Assembly (NCBI RefSeq): GCF_003550175.1
Contig: NZ_QXDF01000004.1
Location: 1-64,000, forward strand
From: Dichotomicrobium thermohalophilum
Lineage (GTDB): Bacteria > Pseudomonadota > Alphaproteobacteria > Rhizobiales > Rhodomicrobiaceae
Length of the DNA stretch: 64,000 nucleotides
Direction of reading: 5' to 3'
Every line of letters begins with the position of its first letter. Position 1 is the first letter of the stretch. Of this stretch, positions 185 to 14,671 are shown in pieces. The notes beneath the pieces were generated by a model, which saw only the letters and a program-made list of their open reading frames with translations, was not told where the DNA came from and did no database searches. The position numbers and the translations under genes were made by a program.

Positions 185-1195
185 CTAATTCTTCGAGATA
201 AGCGGCAGGTTGAACAGCAGGTTCTGCGGCTTCATCTTCAGGCGCTTGTCCGGCGTCATAGCCATGGCCAGGTGGATCGGCTGGCCGCGCGCCTGCTCCA
301 GAACAACGGTCTCATCCGGGATCCTCATATCGAAGAGGGCGATGATCCGCGCTTCAGCGTCCGGCTCCAGCGTTTCGCCGCGATAAAGCGCGTTCAAAAG
401 CGCCGTGGCCTGCGTGTCCAGCCCGATATGCCAGCGCCAGTCCTCGTTCTGGATTGCCGTGCGCGGCTGAACGCGGACCTCGACCTTCAGGAAGTGGCGG
501 ATCCAAGCCTCGACCACGCGGGCGAAAGCGTCGATGGCCGGCTGGCCGAAACGGAAATCGACCACGAAGTCGAATTGCTCCGAGCGCTCCCAGTATTGAT
601 CCTGGTTCTGCTCGCCGAGCACGTCCATCTCGACCTGCCCGCCCCGCGACAACTCCGCCAGCACGAGTTGACCCGGCGCGCCGGACTGCGCGCGCATCTC
701 GACGATCTCCTGATCCGCGAGCATAACCCGGCCCTCGTCGACATTGACGTTCTGGTCCCGGAAGAAAATCTCGGCTGCGCGCAGCCGGAAAGGATCGTCA
801 CAGTCACGCAGGATGTGCCGCAGGGTCAGATGCGCCATCTGATCGAGAAACAGCGGCGGCACATTCACCTGCCCGCTCGTGAACAGCGAGAGATAAGCGC
901 CCTCCACCGTGCCCGACTCGGTCAGATGCTCGCGAAAGCGCAGGACCGCACGGTAGTTCTCGCGCGCGTCCGGGTCGGCCATCGCCTCCAGCTCAGCCTC
1001 GCTGACATTCCGGAACGGGTCCTCCATCAGCGCCTCGAAGAGACGGCGCTCGGCATCACACGATTCCTCGATTGGGTGGATCTCCGGGCGCAGATAGTAC
1101 GCGCGCAGGTAGTCCGGCGTAACGCGCAGCCAGCCCTGCGCGTCCGGCTCGGTCAGATGCAGGCCGGCAGAGCGCCAGAAATCCCTACCCGTCAT
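185..1195 (-). CDS. DUF6352 family protein, last gene of the formate dehydrogenase operon
   Basis: This is a 336-residue soluble protein with no signal peptide or membrane segment. I start it at MTGRDFW (ATG at 1195), because residues upstream in this frame are arginine/serine-rich out-of-frame translation of the neighbouring gene. It overlaps the previous gene by 11 bases, which suggests translational coupling. The sequence (MTGRDFWRSAGLHL start, then a PDYLRAYYLRPE stretch) matches the family NCBI calls DUF6352, which I know from formate dehydrogenase clusters of Alphaproteobacteria. No catalytic motif is evident. The function is unknown, and a role in enzyme maturation or electron transfer is inferred only from operon membership. 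Confidence 0.75.
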   Translation of the reverse strand: MTGRDFWRSAGLHLTEPDAQGWLRVTPDYLRAYYLRPEIHPIEESCDAERRLFEALMEDPFRNVSEAELEAMADPDARENYRAVLRFREHLTESGTVEGAYLSLFTSGQVNVPPLFLDQMAHLTLRHILRDCDDPFRLRAAEIFFRDQNVNVDEGRVMLADQEIVEMRAQSGAPGQLVLAELSRGGQVEMDVLGEQNQDQYWERSEQFDFVVDFRFGQPAIDAFARVVEAWIRHFLKVEVRVQPRTAIQNEDWRWHIGLDTQATALLNALYRGETLEPDAEARIIALFDMRIPDETVVLEQARGQPIHLAMAMTPDKRLKMKPQNLLFNLPLISKN

Positions 1196-1676
1196 CGCTC
1201 TCGATACCCCAGATCTGCGTGGGGACCAGCGGCGCACTCTGCGGCTGGTCGATCTTGCGGAACGACTCCTCGATCTCGCCCGCCTCGTTGACGCTTCGCG
1301 ACACCGCGAAGATGACGCCCGGGCGTACCTCGGCGCAGAGGTCGCTGATGAAGGCCGTTTCCTCGCGCGCGGCTTCGAGGGCAGCGGCGAGGTTCGGCGC
1401 GCCGTATTCGCTGAGCAGATGGCGCGCAAGCACGCTCTCGGCCGCTTCGAGCTGCTCCGGCGTGATCGTTGCGGCAACGACGAAGGTCGAGCGGCCGAAC
1501 GAGCTAAGACCCAGAAACCCGTTCGCAAAAGCCTGCCGTTCCTTGCCGATCAGTGCATCCGGGGGCAGGTCCGCGAAGGCGAAAGCGCCGGAAATCGCCC
1601 ACTCGCCCGGTTGCGCGGCCTGAGGAAAGACGTTGTCGTCGGAATTGTCGAAGCGAATCGTGCGCGCGAACTTCAT
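1185..1676 (-). CDS. DUF6505 family protein
   Basis: This 163-residue soluble protein begins MKFARTIRFDNSDDNVF and has the PGEWAISGAFAFADL stretch typical of the DUF6505 family. There is no signal peptide, metal-binding cysteine cluster or nucleotide motif. Its start overlaps the stop of the upstream ligase-like gene by 4 bases (ATGA), and its end overlaps the downstream DUF6352 gene by 11 bases. The three genes are therefore almost certainly one transcript with coupled translation. The biochemical role is not known; the context ties it to formate dehydrogenase. Confidence 0.75.
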   Translation of the reverse strand: MKFARTIRFDNSDDNVFPQAAQPGEWAISGAFAFADLPPDALIGKERQAFANGFLGLSSFGRSTFVVAATITPEQLEAAESVLARHLLSEYGAPNLAAALEAAREETAFISDLCAEVRPGVIFAVSRSVNEAGEIEESFRKIDQPQSAPLVPTQIWGIESDDG

Positions 1677-2431
1677 TGCAGCGCCGTCTCCTCCGGCCAG
1701 CGCGCGGCGGCGTCCAGCAGACGCAACGAGACATGCTTGCCGTCATCCCGCTTGAGAATGAGGTTGCCGTGCTCGTCCAGTCCAACGAAAGCGCCCGTCA
1801 CCCCAGCGCCGCCACCGGCATCGGCAAACGTCCGCTCTCGGTGGTCGGCGCGCTGTTCCCAGGCGTTGTGGATAGGCGCGAAGCCCTCGGTGTTCCAGGT
1901 GTCGAGCCAGGTCAGGAAGTGGCGGGAATAGGATTCGATGAGCTGTTCGGCTGTAAGCTCCGGGCAGCCCTCCTCGGCCATCGTGGTCACGCTCGGATCG
2001 TTGCCCGGTTCCGGCTCGCCCGGACGCTGCGTCAGACGCACCTCAAGCCCTAGGGCGAGCCACTGCGGGACGCTGTCCTCGGTGGCAGCCCGGTCCACCG
2101 CGACACTGACCTGCGCGACTGCCCCGTCATTGGCATAAATCAGGCCCGGCCAGCCGAAGGTGATGGCGACCTTGGGCGGGGCAAGCGCGGCGAGACAGTC
2201 TCCGCAAGCCACCACGCCGAGCGGGACCATCTCCAGCGCCCGCGTCAGCGGGACATCCGGCTCCAGCACGATAGCCAGGCCCGCATGCGCCTCTTCCAGG
2301 CTCCAAATCACGTCGCCGGCACCGAAGCGCCCGGCCGCAGCGCCCTCGCACGCCACGCGCATCGGCGGCTCGGTGGCGGGGAAAGGATGGCCGGTCAGAA
2401 GCGGCGGAAACTCGATCTCCGTGTGCACCAT
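1673..2431 (-). CDS. Biotin/lipoate ligase-like protein (DUF4444 type), probably non-catalytic
   Basis: This 252-residue protein has a biotin/lipoate protein ligase fold in the N-terminal two thirds and a C-terminal domain of DUF4444 type (about residues 190-252, with GLDEHGNLILKRDDGKH). Aligned by eye to E. coli BirA, the phosphate loop GRGRRGR is replaced by GRFGAGD (about residues 34-40). In the KWPNDLYLQDRKLAG motif, GWPGLIYANDGAVAQ replaces both the first lysine and the catalytic lysine (K183 in BirA becomes alanine). Adenylate-forming activity is therefore doubtful. It sits 21 bases after the DUF6494 gene in the formate dehydrogenase operon. It might bind a cofactor or act as a scaffold, but that is inference. 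Confidence 0.7.
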   Translation of the reverse strand: MVHTEIEFPPLLTGHPFPATEPPMRVACEGAAAGRFGAGDVIWSLEEAHAGLAIVLEPDVPLTRALEMVPLGVVACGDCLAALAPPKVAITFGWPGLIYANDGAVAQVSVAVDRAATEDSVPQWLALGLEVRLTQRPGEPEPGNDPSVTTMAEEGCPELTAEQLIESYSRHFLTWLDTWNTEGFAPIHNAWEQRADHRERTFADAGGGAGVTGAFVGLDEHGNLILKRDDGKHVSLRLLDAAARWPEETALQ

Positions 2432-2452: not shown

Positions 2453-2641
2453 CTATTTCACGTCGATCTCGGTTTCGACCACGTGCTCCAGATCGGTCCC
2501 CTCGGCGGTCAGCGTCATGCGGAGCTTGAGCTTGTCGCCGGTCTTACCCGCGCGCACAAGCTCTTCGATCTCGCGCTGTGAGGTCACGCCGACCTCCTTG
2601 AGGAACTTGCGGATCGCCATGTTCAGACGGTCTTCATCCAT
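2453..2641 (-). CDS. DUF6494 family small protein
   Basis: This 62-residue acidic protein runs from MDEDRLNMAIRKFLKEVGV to a C-terminal VETEIDVK. The pattern, a helix with VTSQREIEELVR followed by a beta-rich tail, matches the DUF6494 family. I set the start at ATG 2641 because upstream codons are the neighbouring cytochrome gene read in another frame. A weak AGGTGT lies just before the start, and only 7 bases separate it from the cytochrome stop. The function is unknown. Its invariable company appears to be formate dehydrogenase genes. Confidence 0.75.
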   Translation of the reverse strand: MDEDRLNMAIRKFLKEVGVTSQREIEELVRAGKTGDKLKLRMTLTAEGTDLEHVVETEIDVK

Positions 2642-2648
2642 ATCACAC

Positions 2649-4043
2649 CTATTGTCGTTCGGCCGGGCGCTCGGCGTCCTCGGTCTTGCGTGTCGCTTTC
2701 TTGAGGAAGGCCACCAGCGCCTCAAGCTTCTTCTCGTCGGTTATCACCTGAAGCGGCATCTTCGAACCGGGGGTGACGTGGTCGGGCCCCTTGTCGAACA
2801 GTTCGCCGATCGTCTCCTCATTCCAGACGATATCGGCGTCTTTCAAGCCCTCGGAGTAGGGATAATCCGGCAGGGCCCCGGCCTTGCGCCCGAAAATGCC
2901 ATATAACGTCGGGCCGGCCCGGTTGCCGTCCGCTGGCGTCAGGGTATGGCACACGCTGCACTTGCGTGCAAATTGGCGCTCGCCCAGGGACATCTCGCCA
3001 CTCACCTGGAAGCGCCGCGGATACTTGCTCGGCACCGGCTCGAACGGTTCGCGCGGGTTGGCGCGCCAGTAGATGGCGAAGTCGTCCAGCCCGCCATAGT
3101 AGAGTTCGCCGGCGCTCTTGAACGCCAGCGCCCAAACCGGGCCAGTCGGGTTGCTGTAGGTCTCCCCCACCGCCCAGTCGTCTGTCTGCCACAGACGGAT
3201 CATGCCGTCCGCGCCCCCCGTCGCGAGCACGTCACGCTCCGGCGACACCGCGAGTGACAGCACCGGCCCTTCGTGAGGCGCGAGCACCTTGATCTCGTTG
3301 CCGTCCCTGTCGATCACCCGGACATCGCCGTTCTGCGCGCCAAAGGCGATGCGCGCGCCCGGCAAAAGCCGCATGGCATTGATGCCCCAGCCGTATTCGA
3401 CGACCGGACGGATCGCGGTGGCTTCGCTTCCGTCAGCGTGCCAGAGGCGGATACTGCCGTCATAGCTGCCGGAATACAGGTGTTCGCCATTTTCGGAGAA
3501 GCCGACCGCGTTGACCGGTCCGGTATGGCCCTTGAGTTCCGCGATCAGTTTGCCATCGGCAATACGCCACAGGCGGACCGTGCGATCCCAGCTTGCGCTT
3601 GCCGCGCGCTCGCCATCGGGCGAGACCGCGACGTCGACGACCTTCGCGTCATGGCCCTCGAAGCGGTGCACGATCTCGCCGGTGTCCAGATCCCAAAGGG
3701 CAAGTGTACCGTCGTCACTGCCCGTGAGCGCCTGACCGCCCGGCACGAAGACAGCCTCGTTGACCGGACCGTCATGGCCGATCAGCCGCTGGACCGCCTT
3801 GGGCGGTTTCGCGCCAAGGTCCCAGTACATCGCGGCGTAATCAAAGCTGGCGGTGAGCGCGTGACGACCATCGTCCGCAATCGCCAGGCCACGCACCGGC
3901 CCGCCATGGCCAACGAGATTGCGTGTGCCGCTGGCGTCGGGTTTGTCCTGCGCGGCCGCCGTCGCAAGCCCCAGGGGGACAACGGCGGCGACCAATATTC
4001 CCGACAGCCAGCGCGACGCTTTGAACGCCAGAGCGCGCATCAC
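2649..4043 (-). CDS. Periplasmic WD40-repeat / cytochrome c fusion protein
   Basis: This 464-residue protein has a signal peptide (about residues 1-31, ending near ATAAAQ). A WD40 beta-propeller follows, with recurring GH...V..V..SPDG...SGS.D..IRLW units from about 40 to 330 that make up roughly six or seven blades. A class I cytochrome c domain ends the protein. The haem site is C362-S-V-C365-H366, and the sixth ligand is probably Met429 in GSKMPL. The gene begins 8 bases after fdhC stops, so it is part of the formate dehydrogenase operon. The likely role is to carry electrons from, or dock onto, the membrane formate dehydrogenase in the periplasm. The propeller may be a protein-binding platform. 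That function is inferred. Confidence 0.85.
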   Translation of the reverse strand: MMRALAFKASRWLSGILVAAVVPLGLATAAAQDKPDASGTRNLVGHGGPVRGLAIADDGRHALTASFDYAAMYWDLGAKPPKAVQRLIGHDGPVNEAVFVPGGQALTGSDDGTLALWDLDTGEIVHRFEGHDAKVVDVAVSPDGERAASASWDRTVRLWRIADGKLIAELKGHTGPVNAVGFSENGEHLYSGSYDGSIRLWHADGSEATAIRPVVEYGWGINAMRLLPGARIAFGAQNGDVRVIDRDGNEIKVLAPHEGPVLSLAVSPERDVLATGGADGMIRLWQTDDWAVGETYSNPTGPVWALAFKSAGELYYGGLDDFAIYWRANPREPFEPVPSKYPRRFQVSGEMSLGERQFARKCSVCHTLTPADGNRAGPTLYGIFGRKAGALPDYPYSEGLKDADIVWNEETIGELFDKGPDHVTPGSKMPLQVITDEKKLEALVAFLKKATRKTEDAERPAERQ

Positions 4044-4051
4044 CCGGGACG

Positions 4052-5275
4052 CTACTCAGCCGGTTGCTGCTGGGCACCACTGGGGGTGCCTTTGGGCTGT
4101 TCGATGTCTCCCTGCGCGATCTCCTTGACCCAAAGACTGTGGTGTTCCTTGGCCCAGTTGAGATCGACCTTGCCGGAGCCCATTGCCTCAAAGCCGCCTT
4201 CCATACCGATCGAGCCGATATAGATGTGCGCGATGATGACGGCTGTCAGGAAGAGCGCCACAATCGTGTGCCACAGTTGGCTGAGCTGCATTTCTTCCAT
4301 CGCCGAGAGCTGCGTCGGAAGTTCGGTGCCGAACACGCTGTTGATCGCGGCGAAGGTCTTGGCGAACATCGCGAACTCGAACGGCAGCAGCAGCGCAATT
4401 CCGGAAAGGGTCACGGACACGCCACCGAGAACAACGAGCCAGAAAATGATCTTCTGGCCGGCGTTGAACTTCTTGGCCGGCGGGTGCACGCCTTTCGAGA
4501 AAAAGCCGCCGCCCATCGCCAGCCATTTGACGTCCGTCCAGTCAGGAATGTTGTAGCGGATCCATTGAAGCGTGATCCACACCAGGCCGACAGCAAAGAA
4601 CGCTGCGGAGATGTGATGCGCCCACTTCCCCCCCAGCGTCAGCGCCGCGAATGCGTCCTTGCCGATCAAGGGCATGAGCGTGGCACGGCCATAGAGCATG
4701 TTGAGCCCGGTGAGCGCCAGGACAATGAAGGAGATGGCCAGCACCCAGTGACCGGTGCGCTCGGCAAAGGCGAAACGTTCGATGACCTTGCCGCTACGCC
4801 CGGCCTCGATGCGGATCGGCCCGGCAATCAGGTAGTAGAGCAGGCACAACGCGGTTATCGCCGCCAGCCCCCACCAGCCGTAGGTTGCAAGCTCGGTGTT
4901 GCGGAACTGGCGCCAGCTCTCGCCAGTACTCTGGATGGCCAGCCCGGCCTGCCCGCCGGGGCCAGTAACGGCGGTGTAGCCCTCGCTGCCGTGGCGCAGC
5001 TTGCTCCAGAAATCCGCATCGGAAACTTCGCCCTGCGTGTTTCCAAATACCTCGCGGGCTTCTGGCCCCTTCTCGAACCGTTGCGGCGGACGCGAGCTTT
5101 CCGGATCACCCGGCTGGCCGGGGACCACATTCGTCGTTGCGTCAGACGGCGGCCGCACGCTTTGTGCGCTGGCCGAGTCCGCGGCGACAGTACCGAGCAG
5201 CAGCGCCGCGAGCACGAGAAAACTCAGGAGGCGGACAGCGCCAAACCTGGTCAAACCAATTCGTTGCATGGACAC
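4052..5275 (-). CDS. fdhC: Formate dehydrogenase gamma subunit (cytochrome b)
   Basis: This 407-residue protein has an N-terminal signal peptide (to about residue 38) and a periplasmic stretch of about 100 residues. The cytochrome b561-type membrane domain of FdoI/FdnI follows. Hydrophobic helices are visible near residues 132-150, 175-195, 220-240, 275-300 and 340-360. Candidate haem-ligating histidines lie in GHWVLAI, WAHHISAA, LWHTIVAL and AHIYIG. It should anchor the alpha-beta dimer and pass electrons to the quinone pool or to the adjacent cytochrome c. The long periplasmic leader is typical of alphaproteobacterial versions and absent from the shorter E. coli protein. A 202-base gap containing a hairpin separates it from fdhB. 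Confidence 0.9.
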   Translation of the reverse strand: MSMQRIGLTRFGAVRLLSFLVLAALLLGTVAADSASAQSVRPPSDATTNVVPGQPGDPESSRPPQRFEKGPEAREVFGNTQGEVSDADFWSKLRHGSEGYTAVTGPGGQAGLAIQSTGESWRQFRNTELATYGWWGLAAITALCLLYYLIAGPIRIEAGRSGKVIERFAFAERTGHWVLAISFIVLALTGLNMLYGRATLMPLIGKDAFAALTLGGKWAHHISAAFFAVGLVWITLQWIRYNIPDWTDVKWLAMGGGFFSKGVHPPAKKFNAGQKIIFWLVVLGGVSVTLSGIALLLPFEFAMFAKTFAAINSVFGTELPTQLSAMEEMQLSQLWHTIVALFLTAVIIAHIYIGSIGMEGGFEAMGSGKVDLNWAKEHHSLWVKEIAQGDIEQPKGTPSGAQQQPAE

Positions 5276-5477: not shown

Positions 5478-6071
5478 TTAGCCGGACTGACCCGGATAGG
5501 CACGTCCCCAGCCCCAGGCGCCGGAGCCGAAGCCGCGGGCCACGACGCGCTTGCGGTAGATGTCGGCGACCTGGTCGCCGTCACCCGCCAGCAGCGCCTT
5601 GGTCGAGCACATCTCGGCGCACAGCGGCAGCTTGCCTTCCGCGATGCGGTTGCGGCCGTATTTCTGGAATTCGACCGCAGACATGTCCTCCTCCGGACCG
5701 CCGGCGCAGAAGGTGCATTTGTCCATCTTGCCGCGGGAACCGAAATTGCTCGCCTGCGGGAACTGCGGCGCGCCGAACGGGCACGCGTAGAAGCAGTAAC
5801 CGCAACCGATGCACAGGTCCTTGGAGTGCAGGACGATACCGTCATCGGTCTGGTAGAAGCAGTCGACCGGGCAGACCGCCATGCACGGCGCATCGGAGCA
5901 GTGCATGCAGGCGACCGAGATCGACCGTTCACCAGGCTCACCATCATTGATGGTCACCACCCGGCGGCGGTTGATGCCCCACGGCACCTCGTTTTCGTTC
6001 TTACAAGCCGTGACGCAGGCGTTGCACTCAATGCAGCGTTCAGCGTCACAAAGGAACTTCATTCGAGCCAT
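5478..6071 (-). CDS. fdhB: Formate dehydrogenase beta subunit (four-cluster ferredoxin)
   Basis: This 197-residue iron-sulfur protein belongs to the FdhB/FDH3-beta group. Four cysteine sets for [4Fe-4S] clusters are visible: CDAERCIECNACVTAC near the N-terminus, CMHCSDAPCMAVCPVDC, CIGCGYCFYACPFG, and a last set made by CTFC plus CAEMC. It wires electrons from the alpha-subunit active site to the cytochrome b subunit. It lacks the C-terminal membrane helix of E. coli FdnH and is shorter (197 against about 290 residues). It starts 13 bases after fdhA stops, so the two are co-transcribed. Cys-rich motifs and position make the call firm. Confidence 0.93.
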   Translation of the reverse strand: MARMKFLCDAERCIECNACVTACKNENEVPWGINRRRVVTINDGEPGERSISVACMHCSDAPCMAVCPVDCFYQTDDGIVLHSKDLCIGCGYCFYACPFGAPQFPQASNFGSRGKMDKCTFCAGGPEEDMSAVEFQKYGRNRIAEGKLPLCAEMCSTKALLAGDGDQVADIYRKRVVARGFGSGAWGWGRAYPGQSG

Positions 6072-6084
6072 TTACGAATCCTCC

Positions 6085-8979
6085 CTAAGCCAGCCAGATC
6101 TTGCACAGCGTGGCCTTGGTCTCCTGCATGTTGGTGACCGAGTCGTAGCCGTAGGTCTGGGCCGTATTACACGCCTCACCGAGCACGTACGGATCGGCGC
6201 CCTCGGGATATTTCGCGCGCCGGTCCTCGCCCTGGAACCAGCCGCCGAAGTGGAACGGCATGAATGCCACACCACGTCCGACGCGTTCGGTGACCATGGC
6301 TTGGACCTTGACCTTGCCCTTCTCCGGTCCTTCAACCCAGACCATCTGGCCGTCCTGGATGCCCAGATTGTTCGCGTCGATCGGGTTGATCTCGACGAAC
6401 ATGTTCTGCTGCAGCTCGGCCAGCCAGGGGTTCGAGCGGGTTTCGTCGCCGCCGCCTTCGTATTCCACCAGACGACCCGACGTCAGGATGATCGGATAAT
6501 CCTTGGAGAAGTCCGTTTCCTGAATCGAGGCGTAGCGGGTGGGCAGACGATACATCTGCCGGTCCGAATAGGTGGCATACTTCGGCAGAAGATCGCGACG
6601 CGGCGTGTAAAGCGGCTCGCGATGCAGCGGGATCGGATCCGGGAAGTTCCAGACCACCGTGCGGGCTTTGGCGTTGCCGAACGGCGCGCAGCCATGCTTG
6701 ATCGCGACGCGCTGGATACCGCCCGACAGGTCGGTCTTCCAGTTCGTCTTGTCACCGGCGATCGCTTCGATGGTCTGACGTTCCTCGTCGGTCAGGTCCT
6801 TGTCCCAGCCAAGCTTCTTGAGCATGGCCATGGTGAACTCCGGATAGCCGTCCTTGATCTCGGAGCCAACCGGGTAGGACGAGCCTTCCTGAGCGCCTTC
6901 GGCGAGCAGGTTGCCGCCGCCCCACTCTTCCGGCGCCTCGACGCCGAAGCGGGCACGGAAGCACAGACCGCCTTCGGAGACCGGCAGCTGCGGGTTGTAG
7001 AGGATCGCAGTGCCCGGATGCTTCATCTCCGGCGTGCCCCAGCACGGCCAAGGCATGCCGTAGTACTCGCCATCCAGAGGACCACCCTTCGCACGGAGCG
7101 TCGTCTTGTCGAAGTGGTGCTGGTACTTCATGTGAGCCTTCAGGCGCTCGGGCGACTGGCCCGTGTAGCCAATGGTCCACATGCCGCGGTTGAACTCGCG
7201 GGTGATGTCCTCGACGAGCGGCTCTTCCCCGTTCACCTTGATGTGCTTGAACATCTCCTTGTCGAAGCCGAACTTCTTCGCGAACTTGTACATGATCGTG
7301 TGGTCCGGCAGCGACTCGAACAGGGGCTCGACAACCTTTTCACGCCACTGGAGCGAGCGGTTGGAGGCCGTCACGGAGCCGTAGGTCTCGAACTGCGTAC
7401 ACGCCGGGAGCAGGTAGACGCCGTCTTTCCGGTCGTGCATGACCGCAGACACTGTCGGGAACGGATCCACCACGACCAGCAGGTCGAGCTTCTCCATCGC
7501 CTTCTTCATGTCCGGGCCGCGAGTCTGCGAGTTCGGCGCGTGACCCCAGAACACCATGGCGCGCAGGTTGTCCTGCTGGTCCATGTTGGCCTTGTCCTCG
7601 AGCACGCCGTCCACCCAGCGGCTGACAGGGATGCCCTTGGACTCCATGAGCTTCTGCGAGGCGAAGCGGCCTTTCAGGTACTCGTAGTCGACATCCCAGA
7701 CGCGCGCCCAGTGCTGCCACGAGCCCTTCTTCAGGCCGTAGTAGCCCGGCAGCGTATGGGACAGCACGCCAAGGTCCGTCGCGCCCTGAACGTTGTCATG
7801 GCCGCGGAAGATGTTGGCGCCGCCGCCCGGCTTGCCGATGTTGCCGAGAGCCAGCTGGAGCACGCAGTAGGCACGGGTGTTGTTGTTGCCGTTGGTGTGC
7901 TGCGTGCCGCCCATGCACCAGACCAGCGTGCCCGGGCGGTTGTTCACCAGCGTGCGGGCCACCCGGCGCAGCTGCGAGCCGGGAACACCAGTGACGCGCT
8001 CGACTTCGTCGGGGTTCCACTTCGCGACTTCCTTGCGGATTTCATCCATGCCCCAGACGCGCTGGCGGATATAGTCGCGGTCCTCCCAGCCATTCTCGAA
8101 GATGTGCCAGAGGATACCCCAGACTAGCGCAACGTCCGTGCCCGGACGGAACCGCACATACTCGGTCGCGTGCGCGGCCGTGCGGGTGAAACGCGGGTCG
8201 CAAACGATGAAGGGCGCGTTGTTCTCCTCCTTCGCCTTCAGCAAGTGAAGCAGCGACACCGGATGCGCTTCGGCCGGGTTCGAGCCGAACAGGATGATCG
8301 AGCGCGAATTATGGATGTCGTTGTAGGAGTTCGTCATCGCGCCATAGCCCCAGGTGTTCGCCACACCCGCGACCGTGGTCGAGTGACAGATACGCGCCTG
8401 ATGGTCACCGTTGTTGGTGCCCCAGAAGGCGTAGAATTTCCGGAACAGATAGGCCTGCTCGTTGTTGAACTTCGCCGAGCCCAGCCAATACACCGAGTCC
8501 GGGCCGGACTTCTCGCGGATCTCGAGCATCTTGTCGCCGATCTCGTTGATCGCCTGCTCCCAGCTGACCCGCTTCCACTTGCCGTCAACCAGCTTGACCG
8601 GGTACTTGAGCCGGCGCTCGCCATGCGCGTGCTCGCGCACCGAAGCGCCCTTGGCGCAGTGGGTACCCATGTTGAACGGGCTGTCGAAGCCGGGCTCCTG
8701 CCCAACCCAGACGCCGTTCTGCACCTCGGCGAGGACCGTGCAGCCAACCGAGCAGTGCGTGCAAACGGACTTCTTGATCTCGATCGGCGCGTCGCTCGAA
8801 CCGACGCCCTCCGCCGCCTTGACGCGGCCCGTAGACAGCGTGGTCGCTGCGGCCAGGCCGCCGATGGCCAGGCCCGAGCGGCGCAGAAATGTACGCCGGT
8901 CCACGGCGCCATCTGCCATCGCAGCAAGCGCTGATGACAAACGGGAGCCAGTCGCAACCCCGTTTTTCTTCTTCAGCAT
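6085..8979 (-). CDS. fdhA: Formate dehydrogenase alpha (catalytic) subunit, Mo/W-bis-MGD
   Basis: This 964-residue catalytic subunit oxidises formate to CO2. A Tat signal is present (DRRTFLRRSG, about residues 27-36, then a hydrophobic run), so the enzyme is exported folded to the periplasm. The [4Fe-4S] ligands are C73, C76, C80 and C108. The metal ligand and catalytic pair is C198-H199 in ARICHSTTVAGV. It is encoded TGC, so this is a cysteine enzyme and not a selenocysteine enzyme. A molydopterin-dinucleotide binding domain forms the C-terminal part. A good ribosome site (GAGGAAGGAAA) precedes the ATG. A tungstate transporter nearby suggests W may be the metal. It is preceded by fdhX. Confidence 0.95.
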   Translation of the reverse strand: MLKKKNGVATGSRLSSALAAMADGAVDRRTFLRRSGLAIGGLAAATTLSTGRVKAAEGVGSSDAPIEIKKSVCTHCSVGCTVLAEVQNGVWVGQEPGFDSPFNMGTHCAKGASVREHAHGERRLKYPVKLVDGKWKRVSWEQAINEIGDKMLEIREKSGPDSVYWLGSAKFNNEQAYLFRKFYAFWGTNNGDHQARICHSTTVAGVANTWGYGAMTNSYNDIHNSRSIILFGSNPAEAHPVSLLHLLKAKEENNAPFIVCDPRFTRTAAHATEYVRFRPGTDVALVWGILWHIFENGWEDRDYIRQRVWGMDEIRKEVAKWNPDEVERVTGVPGSQLRRVARTLVNNRPGTLVWCMGGTQHTNGNNNTRAYCVLQLALGNIGKPGGGANIFRGHDNVQGATDLGVLSHTLPGYYGLKKGSWQHWARVWDVDYEYLKGRFASQKLMESKGIPVSRWVDGVLEDKANMDQQDNLRAMVFWGHAPNSQTRGPDMKKAMEKLDLLVVVDPFPTVSAVMHDRKDGVYLLPACTQFETYGSVTASNRSLQWREKVVEPLFESLPDHTIMYKFAKKFGFDKEMFKHIKVNGEEPLVEDITREFNRGMWTIGYTGQSPERLKAHMKYQHHFDKTTLRAKGGPLDGEYYGMPWPCWGTPEMKHPGTAILYNPQLPVSEGGLCFRARFGVEAPEEWGGGNLLAEGAQEGSSYPVGSEIKDGYPEFTMAMLKKLGWDKDLTDEERQTIEAIAGDKTNWKTDLSGGIQRVAIKHGCAPFGNAKARTVVWNFPDPIPLHREPLYTPRRDLLPKYATYSDRQMYRLPTRYASIQETDFSKDYPIILTSGRLVEYEGGGDETRSNPWLAELQQNMFVEINPIDANNLGIQDGQMVWVEGPEKGKVKVQAMVTERVGRGVAFMPFHFGGWFQGEDRRAKYPEGADPYVLGEACNTAQTYGYDSVTNMQETKATLCKIWLA

Positions 8980-9051: not shown

Positions 9052-9249
9052 CTAGAACGAAGCCAGCTTGTAGTACTGCCGGATGTGCGCGGTTTCCCGG
9101 TAACCGGCGCCTTTCGAGGGCTCGGCCGCTTCGGCCTCCTCGGTGCTTGCGCCGGTCGCCACAGCAACCGCGCCCGCCGTCGCCCCAAGGCCCGCGAGCC
9201 TCAGGAAGTCGCGGCGGTCAGAGCGGAGTTCGCTCTTCTTCTCACCCAT
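9052..9249 (-). CDS. fdhX: Formate dehydrogenase region Tat-signal small protein
   Basis: This 65-residue protein is little more than a Tat signal. It has DRRDFLRLAG at residues 11-20, a hydrophobic run to about residue 33, an acidic EEAEAAEPS, and a short tail ending HIRQYYKLASF. I choose the ATG at 9249 because AAGGAGGA lies directly upstream; a longer reading from 9285 is possible but lacks such a site. It matches the small Tat-target family found next to fdhA in many proteobacteria (TIGR02811 type). It may be a structural or assembly partner of the catalytic subunit in the periplasm. No enzymatic role is known. Confidence 0.85.
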   Translation of the reverse strand: MGEKKSELRSDRRDFLRLAGLGATAGAVAVATGASTEEAEAAEPSKGAGYRETAHIRQYYKLASF

Positions 9250-9315: not shown

Positions 9316-9954
9316 TCAGTCCATCGAAAAAGCCGCCTCTTCCAACTCTAGGAAGACGCGGCCGACGGTACCGATCGCGGCGTAAAGCTTGGAATCCTCG
9401 ACCTTTTCCAGGTCGCGGAAGAAATACGGTGCCCAGGACTGCACGTGTTCCTGAAAGAAAATCCGCTGCTGCGCTACCGGCACGGGCTGGCCGAAATCCC
9501 CGCGGATCAACCCGCCCATCATGTCGAGCACGGAGGCGATGTGATCCTCCGGGTCCTTCTCGTCGGGGTTCGCCTCGATGCCGAGCTGCGCCATCGTATT
9601 GCGCAGGCGCGCAAGCGGTTTTTCGTGCAGAAATCCGGTGAGGTAATAGGAGCCGTACGGCAAGAGCTTGCCGCGCGTCAGGCCGATGAACAGGTCGTGG
9701 TAGGCGTCGTCTTCCTGTTCGACGGTCGTGTCCCGCGCGGCCTGGGAGAGTTTGGCGATAGCCTGGCCGAAATCAGTGTCGCTGCCCTGGAGCTTAGCGA
9801 GATCGGCCAGTTGCTCCGAGCTGGGCGGCGCCGAGAGCAGCTTGGCCAGCATCGCATAGATCGCGGCGCGGGACTCGTCTTCCGGCGCAATCTGCTGCAC
9901 CGCGCTCCCGGTGTTGTCCGATGGACTCATATTCCTCGATACGGCCTGATTCAT
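9316..9954 (-). CDS. TorD/DmsD-family chaperone for formate dehydrogenase
   Basis: This protein of about 212 residues belongs to the TorD family of all-helical redox-enzyme maturation chaperones. The family hallmark segment is seen as AYHDLFIGLTRGKLLPYGSYY and an EPxDH-like DPEDHIASVLDMM motif. It should bind the Tat signal or apo-form of FdhA and guard against export before cofactor insertion. I favour the ATG at 9954, with AGAGGGTGGG upstream, over the GTG at 9966. It is the first gene of the minus-strand formate dehydrogenase operon, 66 bases ahead of fdhX. Some annotations call it FdhE-like, but the motifs fit TorD better. Confidence 0.85.
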   Translation of the reverse strand: MNQAVSRNMSPSDNTGSAVQQIAPEDESRAAIYAMLAKLLSAPPSSEQLADLAKLQGSDTDFGQAIAKLSQAARDTTVEQEDDAYHDLFIGLTRGKLLPYGSYYLTGFLHEKPLARLRNTMAQLGIEANPDEKDPEDHIASVLDMMGGLIRGDFGQPVPVAQQRIFFQEHVQSWAPYFFRDLEKVEDSKLYAAIGTVGRVFLELEEAAFSMD

Positions 9955-10290
9955 TGTCGCACCCACCCTCTTGCCACTCGAAAGGGCGGAATTGTTCTAA
10001 CTCTAATTCAAGAAGCTTACACAGTATCGTCATCTTGGCAAGCGGATGGTTTGGCTGACACATGGGTCAAACCCTTGATTTTCAACGCCCCGGAGTGAAA
10101 CTTATGGTGTGGTGGCAGATTGACATGAAGCAAATCAATGGTTTGGCGGTAGGCAGAGCGCCCAACAGATAGGCATTCACCTGGATCACCCCAGCCCATC
10201 AGACTTTCGTATAATAAGGGCACGCCGGCACCATCCTGCTATGATGCCGCCAGATGAAAGCCCCGGCCGCAGAGGCGTCCCGGGGGCCAC
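9955..10290. promoter_or_regulatory. Divergent control region between the fdh operon and fdhD
   Basis: These 336 bases hold no convincing gene and must contain the promoters of both arms. It is AT-richer than its surroundings. A perfect TATAAT is at 10210-10215 on the plus strand, about 75-80 bases before fdhD, but no good -35 hexamer lies 16-18 bases upstream of it. A 14-base imperfect palindrome, TGACACATGGGTCA, is at 10056-10069 and is a candidate activator or repressor site. Confidence 0.5.
10056..10069. promoter_or_regulatory. Imperfect palindrome TGACACATGGGTCA, candidate operator
   Basis: The sequence equals its reverse complement at 12 of 14 positions, with TGAC and GTCA arms around CATG. 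It is placed about 100 bases before the chaperone gene and 220 before fdhD. The site is short, so chance cannot be excluded. Confidence 0.35.
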
Positions 10291-11241
10291 ATGGACCACA
10301 AAAACAGAGAGTTTTCCGGCATGTCCCACGCAGACGTTCAGGCGATCGCGCCGCGCAATTCCGAGCCGGATGAGTTCACGGTCCGGCCAGACCCGGAGGA
10401 TGAGCGGCTGTCAGTGCCGGTGACGGGAATCGATCATACCGGCGCGAAGGTCGAGACCACCGTCGTCACGGAGCGGCCGCTGACCCTGTTCCTGAACGGG
10501 CAGGAGATTGTGACCATGATGACCATCGGGGATTACCCCGAGCTGCTCGCGGTCGGTTATCTGCTTAATCAGAACATGCTGCGCCAGGACGACGAGATCA
10601 TCGGCATCGACTACGACGACGACATCGAGACGGTCGTGGTCCGAACCGCGCGCGAGACGGATTACGAGGACAAGCTGCGCAAGAAGACACAGACCTCCGG
10701 CTGTGCGCAGGGCACCGTCTTCGGTGACCTGATGGAGCAGATCGACGAGATCGAGCTGAGCAAGAACGCGCGCGTGCGCACTTCCGAGCTTTACGCCCTG
10801 CAGAAGAAGATCAACACGGCCCCCTCGCTCTATCTGAAGGCTGGCGCCATCCACGGCTGCGTGCTGTGCCAGAGCGACAAACCGCTTCTGTACGTCGAGG
10901 ACGTCGGCCGTCACAACGCGGTGGACAAGATCGCCGGCTACATGTTCCTGAATGGCATCAAGCCGGACGACAAGCTGTTCTACACCACCGGGCGGCTGAC
11001 CAGCGAGATGGTCATCAAGACGGTGAAGATGGGCATTCCGGTACTGGCCTCGCGCTCGGGCTTCACCGCCTGGGGCGTGGAACTGGCGCGTGAAGCCGGC
11101 CTGACGCTCATCGGGCGGATGCGCGGCCAGCGCTTCGTCGTGCTGTCGGGTCAGGAGCGTGTGGTTTTCGACGCCCCGCCCGAAAACGCCCCGGCCGAAC
11201 CGGAACATCTGCGGCGCAAGGGCAGCCGCCCCGATCATTAG
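10291..11241 (+). CDS. fdhD: Formate dehydrogenase accessory sulfurtransferase FdhD
   Basis: FdhD moves sulfur from a cysteine desulfurase to the Mo/W-bis-MGD cofactor of formate dehydrogenase. The 316-residue reading shows the family core: GYLLNQ, the catalytic loop TSGCAQGT, EDVGRHNAVDK and TTGRLTSEMVIKT. E. coli FdhD has a CxxC pair in the catalytic loop. Here the loop has one cysteine, and a CVLC pair (bases 10858-10869) occurs about 50 residues later. The start is uncertain between ATG 10291 and ATG 10321. It is the first of four plus-strand genes for cofactor assembly and is divergent from the enzyme operon. Confidence 0.92.
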   Translation: MDHKNREFSGMSHADVQAIAPRNSEPDEFTVRPDPEDERLSVPVTGIDHTGAKVETTVVTERPLTLFLNGQEIVTMMTIGDYPELLAVGYLLNQNMLRQDDEIIGIDYDDDIETVVVRTARETDYEDKLRKKTQTSGCAQGTVFGDLMEQIDEIELSKNARVRTSELYALQKKINTAPSLYLKAGAIHGCVLCQSDKPLLYVEDVGRHNAVDKIAGYMFLNGIKPDDKLFYTTGRLTSEMVIKTVKMGIPVLASRSGFTAWGVELAREAGLTLIGRMRGQRFVVLSGQERVVFDAPPENAPAEPEHLRRKGSRPDH

Positions 11242-11256
11242 ACAGGAGAAAGACGC

Positions 11257-11895
11257 GTGTCCGAGAGGGACGACCCCGTCATCGGCGTGCTGCTGGCCGG
11301 TGGGCTGGCGCGGCGCATGGGTGGGGGCGACAAATGCCTGCTGGAACTGGCGGGCAAGCCGCTGCTGACCCACGCCATCGAGCGGCTCGCGCCGCAGACC
11401 GACGCGCTTGTGCTGAACGCCAATGGTGACCCGGCGCGCTTTGCCGCGTTCGGACTGGATGTCGTGCCGGATCCTATAGCGGGCTATGCCGGACCGCTGG
11501 CCGGTGTGCTCGCGGGCATGGAATGGGCGCGGCGCAACCGGCCAAGCGCGCGCTGGATCGCCACAGCGGCCTCCGACACGCCCTTTTTCCCGCGCGATTA
11601 TGTCGCCCGCCTGCTCGAAGCAGCGCAGCCCCACCACCCGGCGATCGCCATGGCAGCATCGGGCGGGCGCGAGCATCCGGTTTTCTCGCTCTGGCCGGTG
11701 GCCCTGATCGGCGATCTGCGCAGCGCACTCGAAGCCGGCACGCGCAAGATTCTCGACTGGACCGACCGGCACACGACGGTCACCGTATCCTTCGACATGA
11801 TCGACGGGCCGGACGGGGACGTTGACCCGTTCTTCAACGCCAACACACCGGAAGACCTGGAGCGCGCGCAGCGCATCGTGGAGATGCCATCGTGA
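11257..11895 (+). CDS. mobA: Molybdenum cofactor guanylyltransferase MobA
   Basis: MobA adds GMP to molybdopterin to make the MGD cofactor that FdhA requires. The 212-residue length is normal for the family. The nucleotide-binding signature appears as LLAGGLARRMGGGDK at residues 12-26, and the DTPF motif near residue 110 (ASDTPFF) is the metal/GTP site. The start is GTG at 11257 with AGGAGAA 6 bases upstream. It begins 15 bases after fdhD stops and its last bases overlap mobB, so it belongs to the fdhD-mobA-mobB-moeA unit. Confidence 0.93.
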   Translation: MSERDDPVIGVLLAGGLARRMGGGDKCLLELAGKPLLTHAIERLAPQTDALVLNANGDPARFAAFGLDVVPDPIAGYAGPLAGVLAGMEWARRNRPSARWIATAASDTPFFPRDYVARLLEAAQPHHPAIAMAASGGREHPVFSLWPVALIGDLRSALEAGTRKILDWTDRHTTVTVSFDMIDGPDGDVDPFFNANTPEDLERAQRIVEMPS

Positions 11896-12425
11896 CCCCC
11901 GCAGTGTTCGGCATCACGGGCTGGAAGAACTCCGGCAAGACAACGCTGGTCGCCCGGCTTGTGACGGAACTGCGCGGGCGCGGCCTGAAGGTCGGCGTCA
12001 TCAAGCACGCGCATCATGCCTTCGACATTGACCATCCGGGCCGCGACTCGCACACCATCCGCGAAGCCGGCGCGAACGAGGTGGCCATCGTCTCGGCCCG
12101 CCGCTGGGCGCTGATCCACGAATTGCGCGATGGCGAGCCCGAACCGAGCCTGGAAGACATGCTGCCACGGCTGGCCAGCAATGACCTTGTGGTGGTGGAG
12201 GGTTTCAAGCGCGCGCCACATCCCAAGCTGGAGGTGCGCAGTGCCGAGGCGGTTGACACCCGCCCCATGGACGAGATCGCGCCGAACATCGTGGCCCTCG
12301 CCGCCGACGACCCGCAGGACGATCCACGCCCGCATTTCCGGCGCGACGATATCTCCGGCATCGCCGATTTCATCATCGCGCATTTGCGTTTGGCCCCGGA
12401 CGCTGCCAATCTCTCGCAGATATGA
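11892..12425 (+). CDS. mobB: Molybdopterin-guanine dinucleotide biosynthesis adaptor MobB
   Basis: This 177-residue GTP-binding protein has the Walker A loop GWKNSGKT near residues 10-17. Further family motifs are KVGVIKHAHH and VVVEGFKRAPHPKLEV. MobB is not essential but assists MobA in delivering or loading MGD. It starts at GTG 11892 inside the end of mobA (a GTGA overlap of 4 bases), which indicates translational coupling. The C-terminus runs on to 12425, and a 36-base gap precedes moeA. Confidence 0.92.
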   Translation: MTPAVFGITGWKNSGKTTLVARLVTELRGRGLKVGVIKHAHHAFDIDHPGRDSHTIREAGANEVAIVSARRWALIHELRDGEPEPSLEDMLPRLASNDLVVVEGFKRAPHPKLEVRSAEAVDTRPMDEIAPNIVALAADDPQDDPRPHFRRDDISGIADFIIAHLRLAPDAANLSQI

Positions 12426-12461
12426 AATGCGCGCGATGCGCGAAATCCTGCCGAACCGCCC

Positions 12462-13733
12462 ATGACGAAAATGTCCCGTGACGACTGTTTCGAGGCGAAC
12501 CCGACGCGCATGCCCTTCGAGGAATCGCTTGAGCGCGCGCGGATGCTGGCTGATGCGCTCGGCGTCGTGGCCCCGACTGAGACACTGCCGCTGGTTGAGG
12601 CCTGCGGACGCGTGTTGGCTGCGCCGATCAGCGCGCCGCGCGACATTCCCGCGCATGACAACGCGGCGGTCGATGGGTACGCGTTTGCATTCAGCGATTA
12701 CGACCCGGAAAACGGCACCGACCTGCCAGTGAGCGCACGCATCGCCGCCGGTCACCCACTCGACGGCGCCCTGGACCGGGGGACCGCCGCACGCATCTTT
12801 ACAGGTGCTGTCATGCCCGACGGCGCCGATACGGTCGCCATGCAGGAGGACACCTACGACGACGGCGATGGCGTCAACATCCCGCCGGGACTGAAACAGG
12901 GCGCGAACCGGCGCAAGGCGGGCGAGGACGTCCGGGCCGGCCAGACCCTGCTGCGCCCCGGCTGCCTGCTGCGCCCCCAGGACATTGCCGCGATCGCGTC
13001 GCTGGGCTTTGCGGAGGCGCGCTGCTATCGGCGCGTGCGGGTTGGGCTGTTCTCCAGCGGCGATGAACTCCTGCGTCCCGGCGATCCGTTCCGTCCAGGT
13101 GCGGTCTACGATTCCAACGCGGCAATGCTGGAGGCGCTGGCTGATCTCGCCGGCGCGGAGATCACGGACCTCGGCGTTCTGCCCGACAGCCGCGAGGCCG
13201 TGCAAGGCCGGCTAAAGGAGGCGGCGGCGGACTATCCGCTGATCCTGAGCTCGGGCGGCGCCAGCCTGGGTGAGGAGGACCACCTGACCGCCACGCTTCA
13301 CGCCGCCGGCGAAGTCAGCCTGTGGCAGGTGGCGATCAAGCCCGGCCGGCCGATCTGCGCCGGTCGGATCGGCGGGAGTGCGATCGTCGGGCTGCCGGGC
13401 AACCCGGTCGCGGCGTTCGTCTGCTTCCTGCTTTATGTCTATCCGCTCATTCAGAGTCTCGGCGGCGCGGGCTGGCGCCGGGCGCGGCGGTACACCATGC
13501 CCGCCGCTTTCGCGATGACGAAGAAGCCGGGGCGGCGCGAATTCATCCGCGGTATGCTGGACGAGACCGAGGGCGAGCTGCGCGCGCGCAACTATGAGCG
13601 CACCGGCTCCGGGCTCATCACCTCGCTCCGGGAAGCGGACGGGCTGATCGAACTGCCCGAAAAGACCACCGAGATCGCGCCGGGCGATCCCATCGCCTTC
13701 ATCCCCTTCACCGAGTTCGGTGTCCGGCCTTGA
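12462..13733 (+). CDS. moeA: Molybdopterin molybdenumtransferase MoeA
   Basis: MoeA inserts molybdate (or tungstate) into adenylylated molybdopterin. The 423-residue protein shows the standard motifs: PAHDNAAVDGYAF in the N-terminal domain, FTGAVMPDGADTV, FSSGDELL, SSGGASLGEEDH (the MPT-binding MoCF-like domain) and GLPGNPVAAFV. The domain order and length are normal for MoeA. Its place between mobB and the regulator, and the tungstate transporter beyond, suggests that this copy may serve the formate dehydrogenase and could handle tungsten. Whether another moeA exists elsewhere cannot be seen. Confidence 0.95.
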   Translation: MTKMSRDDCFEANPTRMPFEESLERARMLADALGVVAPTETLPLVEACGRVLAAPISAPRDIPAHDNAAVDGYAFAFSDYDPENGTDLPVSARIAAGHPLDGALDRGTAARIFTGAVMPDGADTVAMQEDTYDDGDGVNIPPGLKQGANRRKAGEDVRAGQTLLRPGCLLRPQDIAAIASLGFAEARCYRRVRVGLFSSGDELLRPGDPFRPGAVYDSNAAMLEALADLAGAEITDLGVLPDSREAVQGRLKEAAADYPLILSSGGASLGEEDHLTATLHAAGEVSLWQVAIKPGRPICAGRIGGSAIVGLPGNPVAAFVCFLLYVYPLIQSLGGAGWRRARRYTMPAAFAMTKKPGRREFIRGMLDETEGELRARNYERTGSGLITSLREADGLIELPEKTTEIAPGDPIAFIPFTEFGVRP

Positions 13734-13792
13734 TGGGTGCATAATTTTCGGCTGAGAAAGACATTCTGCAGGACAGTGCACACGATACGTCA

Positions 13793-14671
13793 ATGGCCGA
13801 GCAGCAGGAATACCTGACCACCAAGGAGGTCGCCGCGCTTCTGCGCATCAAGGAGCGCAAGGTCTATGACCTGGCCGCGAGCGGCGCGATCCCCTGTTCA
13901 CGCGCGCTCGGCAAGCTTTTGTTCCCCCGTCGGGAGGTGGAGGCCTGGCTGCAGGGCGAGGGGGGCCAGTTTTCCGCCGCCCCGCGCGTTGCGCGGCCGA
14001 ACGTGGTGCTGGGCAGCCATGACCCGTTGCTGGAATGGGCACTGCTCGAATCCCGCGCTCAGTTGGCGAGCTTTCTTGGCGGCAGCCACGACGGGCTCGA
14101 GCGGTTTGCGCGTGGTGAAGGCATAGCAGCCGGGTTGCATATTCATGAGGCGGGTGGCTGGAACACCGAGACGGCGTCGGCGCGCTTTGCCGAGGGGGAT
14201 TGCGTGCTGGTGGAGTGGGCCTGGCGCCAGCGCGGGCTTATCCTGCCCGAAACGCTGGCGGCTGAGGTGCGCGAACTGGCCGATCTGAAGGGGCGTGTCT
14301 TTGCCCCGCGCGCGGCGGAGACCGGCAGCCAGACGCTCTTCGAGACGCTGCGCGCTGAAGCCGGCCTGAAGCACGACGACATCGAACTCATCGCGCCGGC
14401 CCGCAGCGAGGCCGACGCGGTTTTGGCTGTCGTCGACGGCAAGGCCGACGCCGCCTTTGGCCTCAAATGTCTGGCGCGCCGCTTCCGGCTGGCCTTCGTC
14501 CCGCTGATTTCGGAACGCTTCGACCTGCTGGTGTCGCGGCGCGCCTGGTTCGACCCGCCGTTCCAGACCCTGCTGAGCTTCTGCCGCCGGCCCGAATTCG
14601 CCGAAAAGGCCGCTGATCTGGGCGGCTATGACGTTTCCGGCTTCGGGACGGTCCACTTCAACAGCGCCTGA
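13793..14671 (+). CDS. HTH regulator with periplasmic-binding-protein-like domain, probably a tungstate/molybdate sensor
   Basis: This 292-residue cytoplasmic protein starts with an excisionase/MerR-superfamily winged helix (residues 7-55: YLTTKEVAALLRIKERKVYD, then GKLLFPRREVEAWL). It continues into a type-2 substrate-binding-protein-like domain (about 70-285) of the PBP_like family. In such one-component regulators the second domain senses a small ligand. Here it lies between moeA (59 bases upstream) and the convergent tungstate transporter, so it is a plausible oxyanion- or cofactor-responsive controller of tup and fdh. It has no ModE-type molbindin domain. The ligand is inferred from context only. 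Confidence 0.8.
   Translation: MAEQQEYLTTKEVAALLRIKERKVYDLAASGAIPCSRALGKLLFPRREVEAWLQGEGGQFSAAPRVARPNVVLGSHDPLLEWALLESRAQLASFLGGSHDGLERFARGEGIAAGLHIHEAGGWNTETASARFAEGDCVLVEWAWRQRGLILPETLAAEVRELADLKGRVFAPRAAETGSQTLFETLRAEAGLKHDDIELIAPARSEADAVLAVVDGKADAAFGLKCLARRFRLAFVPLISERFDLLVSRRAWFDPPFQTLLSFCRRPEFAEKAADLGGYDVSGFGTVHFNSA

Follow-up and report, generated by a model that had tools for sequence, protein, structure and literature searches.

Which role would a probably secreted protein, joining a WD40 propeller to a c-type haem domain, play when its gene stands directly after the cytochrome b subunit gene of a formate dehydrogenase operon? The question is raised by the beginning of the window, a term used here for the whole stretch of 64,000 nucleotides of Dichotomicrobium thermohalophilum DNA that was analysed. 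A previous sequence-only reading of this DNA had taken the protein for the probable electron partner of the dehydrogenase.

Organization of the operon

On the minus strand of the first 10 kb, the genes follow one another in the order torD, small Tat-signal gene, fdhA, fdhB, fdhC, fusion gene, and then the DUF6494, ligase-like, DUF6505 and DUF6352 genes. The features are the following:

9316..9966, minus strand: torD, TorD-family chaperone (PF02613)
9052..9246, minus strand: small protein with a Tat signal, encoded between torD and fdhA (61.8 bits against a cut-off of 48.45 for TIGR02811, 'formate dehydrogenase region TAT target')
6085..8979, minus strand: fdhA, molybdopterin catalytic subunit (PF00384, PF01568, PF04879; N-terminal twin-arginine motif RRTFLRR)
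5478..6071, minus strand: fdh3B, iron-sulphur subunit of 197 aa (NF038355 FDH3_beta, 350.4 bits against a cut-off of 240; Fer4 families)
4052..5275, minus strand: fdhC, gamma subunit of the cytochrome b type, its first haem helix preceded by a long stretch (TIGR01583, 148.8 bits against a cut-off of 115.85; alignment with FdnI)
2649..4043, minus strand: WD40 propeller-cytochrome c fusion gene, an ORF of 464 aa that follows fdhC in the FDH3 operon
2453..2644, minus strand: DUF6494 protein (PF20104; recurs in part of the FDH3 clusters)
1673..2431, minus strand: biotin/lipoate ligase-like protein (PF16917)
1185..1676, minus strand: DUF6505 protein (PF20115)
185..1195, minus strand: DUF6352 protein (PF19879; matched with 204-1195, the stop of the frame being at 185)

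Judged from these family matches, this is an FDH3-type formate dehydrogenase operon, since the product of fdh3B exceeds the NF038355 cut-off and is accompanied by a cytochrome b gamma subunit carrying a quinone-site motif. The fusion gene lies between fdhC and the DUF genes, with the DUF6494, ligase-like, DUF6505 and DUF6352 genes downstream, exactly where the sequence-only reading had put it. Only 8 bases separate the fdhC stop from its start, which is a GTG at 4043 or, equally possible, an ATG at 4040. A promoter and terminator scan, a kind of scan that is not evidence of function, returned no terminator-like site between the two genes. Beside the FDH operon and divergent from it (10291-14671, plus strand) are found fdhD, assigned by a family match, and ORFs labelled, from sequence alone, mobA, mobB, moeA and TupA-like binding protein. 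In the FDH3 clusters of loci L227 (10157-15912), L229 and L230, genes for a large 4Fe-4S protein and for DUF3305/DUF3306 proteins are found beside torD, the place that fdhD takes in the window.

Architecture of the fusion protein

The fusion protein is composed of the following parts, in precursor numbering:

3951..4043, minus strand: probable Sec-type signal peptide, about residues 1-31 (hydropathy peak)
3054..3929, minus strand: seven-bladed WD40 propeller, about residues 39-330 (AlphaFold2 model, Foldseek/VIA, PF00400)
2688..2999, minus strand: class I cytochrome c domain, about residues 349-452 (PF00034, 34.1 bits against a cut-off of 21.3 for the cytochrome part alone)
2946..2960, minus strand: CSVCH motif for haem binding at residues 362-366, its two Cys and its His invariant in 74 rows
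2757..2759, minus strand: Met429, probable distal haem ligand (PGSKMP), in a G-x-K-M motif after the haem motif

The N-terminal hydrophobic segment ends in ATAAAQ and shows a hydropathy peak of 2.66, and the protein is probably secreted. The WD40 family PF00400 matches it with an E value of 4e-50. The AlphaFold2 model, computed from the window protein and 73 relatives (74 rows), reaches a pLDDT of 93.1 and a pTM of 0.91, with the cytochrome helices placed after the propeller. The sequence-only reading had left the number of blades at six or seven. The second figure holds and the first is to be discarded, because the 27 strands of at least three residues in the model, plus one short one, fit seven blades of four and the top fold match is a seven-bladed WD40 protein. 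Specifically, in fold searches that cover the propeller part, the best match is 5yzv_B, a propeller of Thermomonospora curvata (Z 42.8, rmsd 1.6, 283 aligned residues), and the seven-bladed WD40 proteins RACK1 and WDR5 are also among the closest solved folds. On the propeller, F67, D110, D111, K134, W152 and D153 are more than 90% conserved, a pattern compatible with a functional face.

With regard to the C-terminal part, its matches identify it as a class I cytochrome c, and the CSVCH haem domain described in the sequence-only reading is confirmed. When searched alone, the cytochrome part matches only PF00034 and PF13442 (the latter with an E value of 0.001) among Pfam families, and its nearest match by sequence is the mitochondrial cytochrome c 1crc_A (E 2e-21). 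The fusion protein has a single CXXCH motif. This motif is present in all 79 titled loci with an extracted protein, the titled loci being the best 80 of 496, while 108 of 109 fused proteins carry a G-x-K-M motif after CXXCH, part of these proteins having been fetched by a pattern that contains G-x-K-M.

The two parts are not always joined. In seven genomes (L056, L059, L061, L064, L102, L252 and L258) propeller and cytochrome are encoded by separate, tail-to-tail genes. N-termini resembling signal peptides are found in the five split cytochromes of L056, L059, L061, L064 and L102 (5/5) and in four of the propellers (L056, L061, L064 and L102), a count that leaves aside the propeller of L059, because its ORF was called too far upstream. 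These five loci form one group in both domain trees, with support of 99/89 and 99/94; the trees are unrooted, take in neither L252 nor L258, and rest for the cytochrome on a short alignment. As the five split loci are grouped and drawn among fused relatives, the trees suggest that the split arose by one fission.

Conservation of gene order

Gene order was compared in 80 titled loci, the best 80 of 496; two peptide patterns served to fetch them, and one of these patterns includes the Met motif. Among these 80 loci, the gene is linked to FDH genes in 72, and in 71 it follows fdhC on the 3' side in the same orientation; both ORFs were extracted from 70 of the 71, and L141 is truncated where its contig stops. 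For 59 of these 70 loci the gap between fdhC and the fusion gene is estimated not to exceed 200 bases, and the widest is about 1.1 kb. In L166 the fusion gene lies about 9 kb before fdhA. The order is not uniform in public records either: in those of Sinorhizobium, Bradyrhizobium and Methylobacterium bullatum the gene is placed several kb before the operon, beside a gene for a 4Fe-4S protein or MoeA-like genes. Public plasmid records label it 'c-type cytochrome' or 'hypothetical protein'. No natural fusion ORF of FdhC and propeller was found among the compared loci.

In the remaining eight of the best 80 loci, no FDH gene is nearby. Seven of these (L130, L135, L138, L142, L143, L195 and L196) bear gammaproteobacterial or symbiont titles; the eighth is L176. 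FDH3_beta is nonetheless found above the cut-off elsewhere in seven of the eight genomes, the exception being G290 (L135), and co-occurrence even without linkage points to a functional tie to FDH3. A mere chance neighbourhood with the FDH operon was considered and rejected, on the grounds of conserved order and co-occurrence.

Co-occurrence with FDH3 across genomes

The distribution of the protein was followed in two samples, which overlap in genomes. The class sample comprises 289 genomes, whose class, Alphaproteobacteria, was assigned from titled relatives. FDH3_beta exceeds the cut-off in 39 of them, and propeller and cytochrome are both present in 31 of these 39, versus 3 of the 250 others. 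The count of 31 takes in G105, where the gene consists of two ORFs (L042), and G035, where it lies about 85 kb from FDH3. Underlying these figures, 43 genomes were matched at an E value of 1e-20, and 34 of these have the protein in fused or split form (29, plus G194, G203 and G287, plus G007 and G127); in the stretches read, G091, G112, G113, G124, G148, G197, G210, G220 and G229 hold propeller or cytochrome but not both. Divergent copies weaker than 1e-20 in the class sample, or than 1e-28 in the phylum sample described below, would be missed, as that of L247 was.

As for the other FDH3 genomes of the class sample, one of the 39 (G044, locus L099) has the propeller alone in the FDH3 operon. 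In seven of the 39 (G051, G064, G075, G148, G154, G229 and G286) neither part is adjacent to FDH3; the contig of G064 stops after fdhC, and in G229 a protein with the propeller alone is encoded on another contig. Conversely, the three carriers without FDH3_beta above the cut-off (G228, G007 and G127) are all fragmented assemblies, and therefore FDH3 may have been missed in them. Specifically, G228 is 80% complete and holds fdhC on the same contig as the fusion protein; G007 consists of 810 contigs and has a split pair, its propeller gene lying some 800 bases from one for a DUF6352 protein; G127 is 74% complete and also has a split pair.

Some of these loci deserve a separate description. In L099 (5177-6112, minus strand) the propeller gene of the FDH3 operon is without the cytochrome domain, and no CXXCH ORF was found nearby. 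In the FDH3 locus L042 (8202-9677) the fused gene appears as two in-frame ORFs separated by a stop, which may represent a broken gene, a sequencing error or readthrough. In L252 (118-3813), from a genome with no FDH3_beta above the cut-off, the split cytochrome and propeller genes neighbour one for a DUF6352 protein. Moreover, G159 and G184 have a second FDH3 operon (L109, L110), and the stretch read around it contains no propeller cytochrome.

In the phylum sample of 398 genomes, FDH3_beta is found in 61 and the fusion protein, at E values below 1e-40, in 21, all of them among those 61. The 40 FDH3 genomes with no match are the full set of 32 that lie outside the class together with 8 of its 29, and a divergent fused copy was later found in one of these 40, G612 (L247). 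The fusion protein thus had no match in any of the 32 sampled FDH3 genomes outside the class, and FDH3 would appear to do without it there. A stand-alone cytochrome c that might replace the fusion was also looked for. In 15 FDH3 stretches only one CXXCH ORF was found, in L103, about 8 kb from fdhC; a scan of 19 stretches returned, besides the divergent fused L247 copy, five other CXXCH ORFs (two in L231 and one each in L242, L244 and L249) resembling chance frames. Taken together, the conserved gene order and the co-occurrence strongly support, from comparison of genomes, the fusion protein as a partner of the FDH3 formate dehydrogenase, as the sequence-only reading had proposed.

FdhC and the quinone site

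FdhC aligns with E. coli FdnI (1kqf_C) with an E value of 3e-18. Its residues H176, H220, H336 and H350 fall on what we take to be the haem-b ligands of FdnI, and N271 and G273 fall on N110 and G112, presumably part of the N-x-G quinone-site motif. The haem-b ligands and N271, G273, Q274 and K275 are invariant in 112 aligned rows, which represent 111 of 112 loci plus the window (L110, without the selection motif, was dropped); R173 and H176 are invariant by selection, since the rows were picked by the motif R..H. In other words, no decay of the quinone site was seen among these 112 rows, and 96 of the 112 FdhC loci hold the fusion protein in the same stretch. Because of these invariant residues, FDH3 resembles an ordinary quinone-reducing enzyme to which the cytochrome is an addition: on this alignment, the fusion protein is an added partner of a putatively quinone-reducing enzyme. 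The quinone bypass suggested in the sequence-only reading consequently finds no support as the main route, as FdhC keeps its haem-b histidines and the N-x-G motif and all 32 sampled FDH3 genomes outside the class are without a match.

A carrier-specific extension of FdhC was considered as a possible dock and rejected. The long stretch before the first haem helix is found in loci with and without the fusion protein, and thus marks FDH3 generally. Mirror-tree analysis did not single out FdhC as partner of the propeller either: the partial correlation of the propeller is 0.31 with FdhC, 0.42 with its own cytochrome and 0.45, the highest of these values, with TorD, which is cytoplasmic. On the acceptor side, the same genome encodes a CtaD cytochrome c oxidase above the cut-off, a Rieske protein and a CcmF/NrfE-type maturation protein, which means that a c-type exit would have a sink.

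A possible second electron exit and its rivals

The reading that we favour, and to which we give about an even chance, is that the docked periplasmic cytochrome is an accessory partner giving FDH3 a second electron exit, similarly to NarC of the Thermus nitrate reductase. In this mechanism, FdhA would oxidise formate in the periplasm and the electrons would reach the b haems of FdhC by way of FdhB; from there most of them would go to quinone. The propeller would dock beside FdhB/FdhC and bring the c haem close either to the b haem on the periplasmic side or to the final FeS cluster, and the fused cytochrome would pass some of the electrons on to the cytochrome c pool of the periplasm and to an aa3-type oxidase. 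Both docking by the propeller and electron transfer to the fused cytochrome are proposed here by analogy. The reading is favoured by the operon position, the co-occurrence, also where the genes are unlinked, the split form, the intact haem motifs, the available sink and the NarC precedent; it is weakened by the many genomes with FDH3 and no such protein, by the three carriers without FDH3_beta, by the unspecific mirror-tree and by the energy cost. Since sending formate electrons to cytochrome c forfeits the coupling at quinone, a partial or conditional exit is likelier than a full bypass. A broader formulation, in which FDH3 of many Alphaproteobacteria would be a four-part enzyme with two exits, one to quinone through FdhC and one through a propeller-docked c-type cytochrome linking formate directly to cytochrome c oxidase, is conceivable but somewhat doubtful. 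If true, a quinone-reducing molybdoenzyme would also have formate:cytochrome c oxidoreductase activity, and the propeller would represent a new docking platform for a respiratory cytochrome.

The main rival, which we regard as unlikely, is that the protein is an assembly or docking factor: the propeller would attach exported FdhAB to FdhC or hold the complex together, the haem would be structural or a redox checkpoint, and electrons would leave by quinone only. WD40 propellers are typical scaffolds, and the presence of RACK1 and WDR5 among the top folds goes in the same direction, as do the quinone-site motif retained in FdhC and the one FDH3 operon (L099) that has the propeller without cytochrome. 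In addition, Thermus mutants without NarC make a soluble, immature NarG, according to the accessible text of PMC7694296. However, a purely structural haem is hard to reconcile with electron-carrier motifs kept in 108 of 109 fused proteins and with a cytochrome that persists as its own gene where the pair is split, and an assembly factor is at odds with the FDH3 that occurs outside the class without the fusion protein.

That FDH3 uses an exclusive formate:cytochrome c route, with its electrons going to the fused cytochrome instead of quinone, is improbable. The strong linkage of the fusion gene to FDH3 would agree with such a route, and Methylobacterium FDH3 is called cytochrome-linked in the available portions of PMC6520949 and PMC5784242; yet the FdhC residues described above are invariant in the 112 rows (the first His by selection), and most of those very loci hold the fusion protein. 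Finally, that the protein is a periplasmic redox sensor, or carries electrons in a different process, such as the maturation of a cofactor by the DUF proteins of the cluster, and merely shares the FDH3 regulon, is also improbable: some Hyphomicrobiales records do place the gene several kb before fdhA, beside a 4Fe-4S gene and DUF6505/DUF6352, and the gene is unlinked in the seven loci whose titles point to gammaproteobacteria or symbionts, but 71 of these best 80 of 496 loci have it after fdhC, many without DUF genes in the fetched stretch.

Comparison with known systems

The closest precedent is offered by nitrate reduction. Thermus NarC is described as a periplasmic c cytochrome bound to the b-type subunit of the nitrate reductase, whose maturation needs NarC and for which electron branching has been proposed, and the homologous route of Nitrobacter is described as leading from cytochrome b, via a NarC homologue, to complex III or IV (PMC7694296, available text). 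As in NarCGHI, a periplasmic c-type cytochrome is encoded here with a quinone-linked molybdoenzyme that has a di-haem b subunit, the attachment being that of NarC and, in our case, putative. NarC, however, is membrane-bound, has two c haems and is encoded by the first gene of its operon in that text, whereas the fusion protein has one haem motif, no evident anchor beyond the signal peptide, and a propeller, and its gene is downstream of that of the b subunit.

Among formate dehydrogenases, FDH3 (fdh3ABC) of Methylobacterium is close, as the FdhB encoded in the window exceeds the NF038355 FDH3_beta cut-off. The Methylobacterium enzyme is described as cytochrome-linked, and 'fdh3ABC and c07840' are listed as the cytochrome-linked complex in PMC5784242 (c07840 being known here by name alone); unlike the window operon, these accounts, in their accessible portions, mention no propeller cytochrome and characterise no cytochrome beyond the complex's own genes (PMC6520949, PMC5784242). 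FdhABC3 of Desulfovibrio/Nitratidesulfovibrio is likewise a periplasmic formate dehydrogenase with a cytochrome c subunit, a putative partner in the window, but in the available text its cytochrome is tetrahaem and there is no integral membrane subunit (PMC13397495), in contrast with the one haem and complete FdhC of the window.

With regard to the domain combination, the sequence-only reading had called fusions of WD40 and cytochrome c rare, which is wrong as put. The PSCyt/PSD genes of Planctomycetes and Verrucomicrobia, that is, genes for planctomycete-type cytochromes c, combine cytochrome c domains with WD40 among other domains, as stated in the accessible part of PMC5615132; unlike in these proteins, no PSCyt family is among the Pfam matches of the window cytochrome part. 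The best named matches of the haem domain are instead class I cytochromes, namely Bradyrhizobium cytochrome c-550 CycA (NF043008) and mitochondrial cytochrome c, but the fusion protein scores 62.8 bits against the NF043008 cut-off of 240 and, unlike CycA, is fused to a propeller.

Significance of the propeller cytochrome

Accessory cytochromes of molybdoenzymes (NarC, FdhABC3) and combinations of WD40 with cytochromes (PSCyt genes, PMC5615132) are already known, as the available texts of these sources indicate. No description of a conserved FDH3 partner that joins a seven-bladed propeller to a single class I haem was found in the literature searched, most subscription papers lying outside it. 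The conserved propeller-cytochrome gene is a concrete candidate for the cytochrome of the 'cytochrome-linked' FDH3 of methylotrophs.

Judged by record titles and the usual lifestyles of these groups, the carriers include roseobacters, rhizobia, methylotrophs and sulphur-oxidising symbionts. If the protein is an electron exit, formate oxidation in these bacteria would be partly independent of the quinone pool and C1 energy yields would change, which would be useful for formate-based biotechnology. Moreover, the fused and split forms provide natural material on whether the propeller is a dock. Lastly, an FDH3 operon of the alphaproteobacterial kind, with the propeller cytochrome, is found on a contig titled Oceanobacillus (L147), perhaps from a mislabelled or mixed genome.
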